NCBI RefSeq assembly: GCF_006517255.1
Contig: NZ_CP041185.1
Span: 3,534,001-3,598,000, forward strand
Source: Janthinobacterium tructae
Lineage (GTDB): Bacteria; Pseudomonadota; Gammaproteobacteria; Burkholderiales; Burkholderiaceae_D
Length of the DNA: 64,000 nt
Direction: 5' to 3'
The position numbers and the translations under genes are program-made. Below are positions 4,089 through 13,265 of the stretch, one piece after another. Under the pieces are notes generated by a model. That model saw nothing but the letters and a program-made list of their open reading frames with translations. It had not been told where the DNA came from and ran no database searches. Positions within the stretch are counted from its first letter, which is position 1. Every line of letters begins with the position of its first letter.

Positions 4089-4264
4089 CTAAGTAACCCC
4101 CAATAAATTATTGTGATTTCTGACTTCCATAACTGGCGCTCTGCAAGGTGGCCGACGAGGCTTGCCCGCTGCTAGCAGTGCTCGCACTGCTAGCAGCGGG
4201 CGCCTTGCATAGCATCCGGTTCTGTTCGTCATAATTTCACAATAATTTCCTGAGGATTACTTAG
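4089..4264. repeat. Terminal-inverted-repeat element, copy 1 (176 bp)
   Basis: The element begins CTAAGTAA and ends TTACTTAG. The first 28 bases match the reverse complement of the last 28 at 24 positions. The centre holds a perfect 18-bp stem (4164-4181 with 4184-4201, loop TC) built on GCCCGCTGCTAGCAGTGC. A second copy lies at 13102-13265, with the first 45 bases identical and the right arm identical but for one base; copy 1 has about 12 extra bases in the middle. No coding capacity. It resembles a MITE or Correia-like element. It lies between two minus-strand genes, just upstream of NnrU. Confidence 0.85.
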
Positions 4265-12583: not shown

Positions 12584-13105
12584 ATGACAACTACCCCGCA
12601 AGAACACACGCGCGCGCAATTTGCCGCAGCACAATGGCAGCGCGAATTGCCGCAGATGGATACGCATGCCATGCAACTGGTGGGCCAGCTGGGCACGGTG
12701 GCGCAGCTGATGGCGCGCGACTGGCTTAACCCGCTGTTTGCCGAACATGGCTTGCAACCGGGCGAATTCGACGTGCTGGCGACCTTGCGCCGCTCGGGCG
12801 CGCCCTATGCGCTGACGCCGACGGCCTTGTACGAGGCGGCCATGCTGTCCTCGGGCGGCATGACCAACCGCATCGACCGGCTGGAAGCGGCAGGCCTGAT
12901 CGAACGCCAGAAGCACCCGACAGACCGGCGCGGCGTGCTGGTGGCCCTGACGCCGAAGGGATTGGCACTGATTGACAAGCTGGTGCTGCTGCACGTGGAG
13001 AACGAACGCGCCATGCTGTCGGCGCTGAGCGCGGACGAGCAGCGCCAGCTCGACGAATTGCTGGCCAAGCTGCTGCAGGGCATGGCGCAGGCGAAGAAGG
13101 GCTAA
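12584..13105 (+). CDS. MarR family transcriptional regulator
   Basis: A 173-residue winged-helix regulator. After an N-terminal dimer helix, the core shows LQPGEFDVLATLRRSGAPYA, then LTPTALYEAAMLSSGGMTNR as helix-turn-helix, RIDRLEAAGLIERQKHPTDR as recognition helix and wing with the DxR motif, and a C-terminal dimer helix. It matches the subgroup of MarR proteins found beside efflux pumps, here the divergent MFS gene. The TAA stop at 13103-13105 lies inside the terminal CTAAGTAA of the repeat at 13102-13265. Confidence 0.9.
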   Translation: MTTTPQEHTRAQFAAAQWQRELPQMDTHAMQLVGQLGTVAQLMARDWLNPLFAEHGLQPGEFDVLATLRRSGAPYALTPTALYEAAMLSSGGMTNRIDRLEAAGLIERQKHPTDRRGVLVALTPKGLALIDKLVLLHVENERAMLSALSADEQRQLDELLAKLLQGMAQAKKG

Positions 13106-13265
13106 GTAACCCCCAATAAATTATTGTGATTTCTGACTTCCATAACCAGCGCTCTGCGGCGTTGCCCGCTGCTAGCAGTGCTCGCACTGCGTCGCAGTGG
13201 GCGCCTTGCATAGCATCCGGTTCTGTTCGTCATAAATTCACAATAATTTCCTGAGGATTACTTAG
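13102..13265. repeat. Terminal-inverted-repeat element, copy 2 (164 bp)
   Basis: Same element as at 4089-4264: CTAAGTAA at the left end, TTACTTAG at the right end, the same 45-base left arm and a right arm differing by one base. The central hairpin is degraded here (GCACTGCGTCGCAGTGGGC on the right side). It sits exactly between two convergent genes: the TAA of the MarR gene (13103-13105) and the TAA of the minus-strand gene (complement of 13262-13264) are both inside the element's terminal octamers. No target-site duplication is obvious. Confidence 0.85.

Follow-up and report, generated by a model that had tools for sequence, protein, structure and literature searches.

The nearest precedents for the insertion reported here are RUP, the BOX elements and MITEPsy1. 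RUP of Streptococcus pneumoniae is a 107-bp non-autonomous MITE of IS630-Spn1, with IS630-like ends, a TA target and stop codons in all six frames (PMC2229807). BOX elements encode the stop codon of a gene in 36 cases, with no strong evidence of truncation (PMC3049150), and MITEPsy1 of Pseudomonas syringae is a MITE of 100 bp with CTAG or YTAA as its insertion target (PMC3189936). More broadly, members of the IS630/Tc1/mariner family such as IS630 and ISY100 are described as targeting TA and duplicating it (PMC2170065). The element studied here has the TA target and its duplication in common with IS630 and ISY100; however, the latter are autonomous and encode a transposase, whereas our element is a non-coding sequence of 158 bp. 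It stands beside RUP as an IS630-type MITE with a TA target. Like the BOX elements it supplies stop codons without evident truncation, although the description of these gives no target-palindrome rule, whereas in the present case the change from TAG to TAA follows from CTAG plus the terminal A of the element. MITEPsy1 differs in duplicating 4 nt and in its kinship to ISPsy2 of the IS5 family, the common trait being the CTAG target. Among the titles and abstract openings searched, no insertion into overlapping convergent stop codons is described. Searches in these wordings gave no paper joining Janthinobacterium with MITE and insertion sequence, or miniature inverted-repeat with Oxalobacteraceae, the family name for the genus.

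The window, that is the whole stretch of 64,000 nucleotides that was analysed, corresponds to positions 3534001-3598000 of a single-contig genome of 6.31 Mb (G000). Our proposal, which we hold with high confidence, is that an IS630-related MITE inserted in the TA of a CTAG shared by the stop codons of two convergent genes, changing TAG into TAA twice and leaving both proteins unchanged. The locus offers a case at base resolution of a transposon that splits two overlapping convergent genes with both proteins intact, and a simple, checkable rule, namely that a TAG or TAA stop survives when a TA target is joined to an element whose terminal base is A or G. The features are collected in Table 1.

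Table 1. Features of the insertion locus and of the second copy in the window (feature; position; strand; basis or remarks)
Second copy of the same MITE	4089..4264	+	core 4092-4261, 170 bp; genome match and copy alignment
MarR-family regulator gene, 173 aa	12584..13105	+	Pfam PF12802 4.1e-14, PF01047 2.2e-12
Target C of CTAG	13102..13102	.	C in 76/93, T in 15/93 sites (among the matches listed)
TAA stop of the MarR-family gene	13103..13105	+	TA from the target, A from the element
Target TA, left duplicate	13103..13104	.	one TA in empty sites, two in filled sites
MITE core	13105..13262	.	158 bp, AGTAACCCC...GGATTACT, largely self-complementary; copy alignment and fold of 13102-13265
Left terminal inverted repeat arm	13105..13132	+	inverted-repeat comparison
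Right terminal inverted repeat arm	13235..13262	-	inverted-repeat comparison; with the flanking CTA, 23/30 ungapped match to one genus IS630 end
Convergent gene, 201 aa	13262..13867	-	no Pfam match at E<=0.001
TAA stop of the convergent gene	13262..13264	-	TA from the target, A from the element
Target TA, right duplicate	13263..13264	.	one TA in empty sites, two in filled sites
Target G of CTAG	13265..13265	.	G in 80/93, A in 9, C in 4 (among the matches listed)

The first-pass annotation had recognised a repeat at 13102-13265, and this was borne out; the sequence starts with CTAAGTAA and ends with TTACTTAG. Nine copies matching most of its length, this one included, are present in G000 (the remaining rows of the match table are reverse-strand matches to the same copies or short matches at chance level), and 35 of 40 genomes of the genus, G000 included, match it at E<=1e-6. 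An exact 46-nt end of the element was found in 18 stretches of named genomes, all of them Janthinobacterium, which makes this almost certainly the genus of the window. In a family-level sample, with two candidates scored per genome, matches occurred in 61 of 294 genomes and 12 of 44 genera. Many of the matches outside the genus (G066, G242 and G151, for example) cover only the centre of the element, at about query positions 48-117, as if the core hairpin were common to other repeat families of the bacterial family; such centre-only matches may be other elements. The second copy in the window lies about 9 kb from the first, is intergenic and is flanked by CTA and TAG.

We aligned 118 copies, a part of the genus matches (9 from G000, 29 as the best of each other genome and 80 further among the matches listed), and reduced them by flank similarity to 93 distinct sites with one representative each, a reduction which leaves a few near-identical flanks split (L173, L181). 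The core measures 158 bp in 70 of the 93 distinct cores among the matches listed, and the arms at 13102-13132 and 13235-13265 are 84% complementary across 31 nt. From the aligned copies together with the empty sites it follows that the target is CTAG, that TA is duplicated and that the element proper is the 158-bp core. The element is thus short, non-coding and multi-copy with terminal inverted repeats, and we assign it as a MITE of IS630/Tc1-mariner type in Janthinobacterium. Two other target schemes were tried and rejected. Duplications of 4 to 8 bp outside CTAAG, sought by eye, seemed plausible in some of the nine G000 copies (CGTA, ACGT) but fail in most of them, and the empty sites show a 2-bp TA; an IS5-type origin with a 4-bp YTAR duplication, as in MITEPsy1, does not fit a left end that reads CTA plus A and not CTAG plus element. 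An Rfam search of the element returned two miRNA matches only, far below the gathering score. In a small group of copies (L008, L205, L207, L208 and L049) positions 8-12, in the CTAAG numbering, are occupied by other bases (CTAAGTAGGTCG or close to it, TTCAGTAAGTAC), both arms being changed with the complementarity of the ends mostly kept.

IS630 reportedly prefers the TA in CTAG, according to the title of the 1991 work of Tenzen and Ohtsubo, and the same preference is found in the family of the window MITE. Among the matches listed, the left triplet is CTA at 66 of 93 sites and TTA at 11, the right triplet is TAG at 77 and TAA at 8, and CTA and TAG occur together at 56; TA stands on both sides at 74 sites, C precedes at 76 and G follows at 80. 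The other 19 sites, where one side at least has no clean TA, are attributed, without proof, to decay or misplaced ends. Three further pairs of empty and filled sites show CTAG becoming CTA...TAG, at the sites of L026 (empty in G021, GGCCTAGCC), L003 (empty in G012, GGCCTAGCC) and L009 (empty in G019, CGCCTAGAC; the left end of the filled copy now reads CCA), bringing the loci with TA duplicated between empty and filled state to four. At the L003 and L009 sites the place of CTAG is taken in other relatives by TTAG or CTAA, still with one TA, and for this reason the exact pre-insertion letters at the three further sites are those we infer; in the L003 comparison three of eleven loci (L254, L258, L260), with anchors at the wrong place, were left out. 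In G005 the L026 site provides a second case with both stop codons on one CTAG. The target also appears asymmetric relative to the element, C following the right-hand TAG at 60 of 93 sites against 252 of 592 in the background (p=2e-5), and the mirror base G preceding the left-hand CTA at only 33 of 93 sites among the matches listed.

The MarR locus was inspected in G000 and 29 relatives (30 loci from 33 genomes with a match). A blastn search with the element located it at this locus in G000 and in 0 of the 29 relatives, and the empty site of G039 reads, letter for letter as predicted, AAGGGCTAGGCGAG, where the junctions in G000 read AAGGGCTAAGTAAC...GATTACTTAGGCGAG. In 26 of the 29 relatives the two genes converge, their last sense codons being separated by 2 to 12 nt. 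In 22 this spacing is 2 nt, so that both stops overlap in one YTAR tetranucleotide: CTAG, with TAG on both strands, in 8, TTAA in 8, TTAG in 4 and CTAA in 2. The remaining three relatives have a broken convergent frame (G008), a longer overlap (G024) or no convergent gene found (G027). That the element might instead be an older fixed part of the intergenic region, lost in the relatives, is an account for which we found no supporting point; it is contradicted by the 29 inspected relatives that are without the element, 22 of them with stops still overlapping, and by the presence of the same family at 93 distinct sites among the matches listed, and we assign it a negligible probability.

The analysis of the protein ends bears on the suggestion of the first-pass annotation that insertion had replaced the original C-termini, for which it had named the comparison of orthologues beforehand as the refuting test. 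The relatives, all without the element, end the MarR-family protein at query residues 171-173, within two residues of the same place, with a TAA or TAG of their own (28/28); in G027 a TAG ends it one residue later. For the convergent protein, 27 of 28 relatives extend to query residue 201, three having one residue added and G024 more. In 26 of the 28 it ends either at the identical residue or at the next one, the exceptions being G008, with its broken frame, and G024, where it runs on. The suggestion of replaced ends is therefore not supported: on either strand the insertion turned a TAG into a TAA, and both proteins stayed as they were, which corrects the idea that stop codons borne by an element imply replaced C-termini. 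The genes, which overlapped by 4 nt before the insertion, are now 156 nt apart.

Thus, we propose that the CTAG was the former shared end of the two convergent genes; as a palindrome it reads TAG on both strands and would have held both native stop codons. Insertion into its TA by an IS630/Tc1-mariner reaction would duplicate the TA and place the terminal A of the element behind each copy, and in this way TAG would be turned into TAA on both strands. The two stops had been read correctly in the earlier annotation, and its statement that both come from the element is right for the third base, A, while T and A belong to the target in each. Likewise, both stops do lie inside the terminal octamers that it had singled out for containing TAA in both directions, but the outer CTA and TAG of these octamers are target sequence. 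The insertion would presumably have been neutral for fitness.

Regarding the source of the transposition activity, DDE_3 transposase matches were found in 10 of 40 genomes of the genus, and a search of G000 gave no IS630 transposase or DDE_3 match. At 11 of 20 loci, measurement gave IS630-type elements 1070-1071 bp long and bounded by YTAAGTA ends, corresponding to 10 distinct elements given that two loci cover one element; the remaining loci are incomplete or end differently. The intact 332-aa transposase of L123 is classified as IS630 by NCBIfam with 215.9 bits (cut-off 100) and carries DDE_3 and HTH domains, and that of L116 is split between one open frame of 156 aa and another of 174 aa. 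The outer ends of the MITE are shared with these autonomous IS630-type elements of the same hosts, located in other genomes of the genus. For the right end of the MITE, an ungapped comparison with one end of this IS type, the best-matching pair by visual choice, gives agreement at 23 of 30 positions; after removal of the first five positions 18 of 25 agree, a value reached by 0 of 100000 shuffles, again for a pair picked by eye. Exact identity between the ends of MITE and IS630 extends at most over the first 7 bases (CTAAGTA) and over ATTGTGAAT. The element is a non-autonomous relative of a Janthinobacterium IS630-family insertion sequence, presumably mobilised in trans by such a transposase. 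The distribution of DDE_3 matches and the search result in G000 count against the proposal, and given these the mobilisation would be past, or the enzyme has now been lost or was missed. The analysis thus describes a MITE family of Janthinobacterium for which an IS630 relative is present in the same genus.

The earlier annotation had further proposed that the element carries outward-facing stop codons and is selected for landing at gene ends, an explanation that, taken with the replacement of both protein ends, we judge improbable. The TAA found at the junction on both sides speaks for it, and so does the raw distribution of the copies. Genes were called with our own simple codon-usage caller, and two G000 copies have a gene context without a clear verdict. 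Among the matches listed, the 93 sites divide into 31 on a stop codon, 7 in a gene interior and 55 in intergenic sequence; the background comprised the 296 CTAG sites in 864 kb from four genomes (G000, G030, G012, G004), a few of them internal to MITE copies, with 31 on stops, 84 inside genes and 181 between genes. Of the element sites, the other 62 are not on a stop. With equal flanks the excess on stops amounts to 31/93 against 29/279 (about 10%; p=1e-6), and before matching stop against intergenic sites gives p=1e-4 and stop against convergent intergenic sites 31:6 versus 29:9 (p=0.57). Regions without called genes hold 77 of 280 background sites against 7 of 93 element sites. Once the background is matched (called genes on both sides, gaps <=600 bp) the significance is lost: stop against intergenic becomes 31:45 versus 29:73 (OR 1.7, p=0.11), or 21:25 for CTA/TAG-only sites (p=0.06), and stop against sites within 50 nt of a gene 3' end 31:12 versus 29:12 (OR 1.07, p=1.0). 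The depletion of interior sites among the copies (7/93 versus 79/280, p=1.5e-5) is as purifying selection predicts, and the protein ends unchanged with respect to the relatives also argue against this explanation. What stands of the earlier interpretation is that the element completes the present stops and that about a third of the sites lie on stop codons; the matched comparisons give no significant excess in favour of selection for gene ends, and the replacement of protein ends is not supported.

The simplest reading is that insertions within genes are purged and that insertions on TAG stops, being silent, are tolerated, so that target chemistry and purifying selection are the simplest account of the site pattern. 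In all, 40 gene ends lie inside an element end, and 32 of them use the TAA at position 2, that is the rebuilt native stop; the other 8 end at later positions (1 at 6, 2 at 16, 1 at 26 and 4 at 34) and are truncated or altered, and six more genes stop just ahead of the element. With CGA in place of CTA at its left junction, copy L184 has lost the rebuilt stop, and the gene there continues as far as a stop at element position 26. A further reading, rather unlikely in our opinion, is that CTAG-targeting elements with a terminal A use TAG stops as a safe harbour, which perhaps shaped the ends of the element. In these genomes base composition predicts about ten times as many CTAGs as are present (2969 expected versus 296), and CTAG reads TAG on both strands, so that an element beginning with A would restore a stop on either side wherever one is hit. 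If this reading were true, such elements would find their ideal site where convergent genes share their stops.

The element folds to one long hairpin on either strand, at -71.4 and -85.1 kcal/mol, far better than shuffles (z -9.5 and -11.6), and it sits exactly between convergent genes. Both facts would suit a hairpin kept as a bidirectional terminator or as an RNA-stabilising structure, which we nevertheless regard as unlikely. In the 93 copies 67 cells carry changes on both sides of a pair against a shuffle mean of 11.4, a figure inflated by shared ancestry, and 95% of cells pair, as do 93.5% in shuffles; the covariation of the hairpin is therefore suggestive but confounded by relatedness. 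Against such a function, the hairpin is not followed by a U-run, and on neither strand did the terminator scan give a site within the element, its sole terminator-like site being at 13025-13008 on the minus strand, outside the element; moreover, only 6 of the 55 intergenic copies lie between convergent genes, and of the 30 loci inspected that of G000 alone carries the insertion. The element may have an effect on transcription. As for how common the arrangement of overlapping stops is, 9 of 120 called convergent gene pairs in the 864 kb from G000, G030, G012 and G004 overlap by exactly 4 nt.
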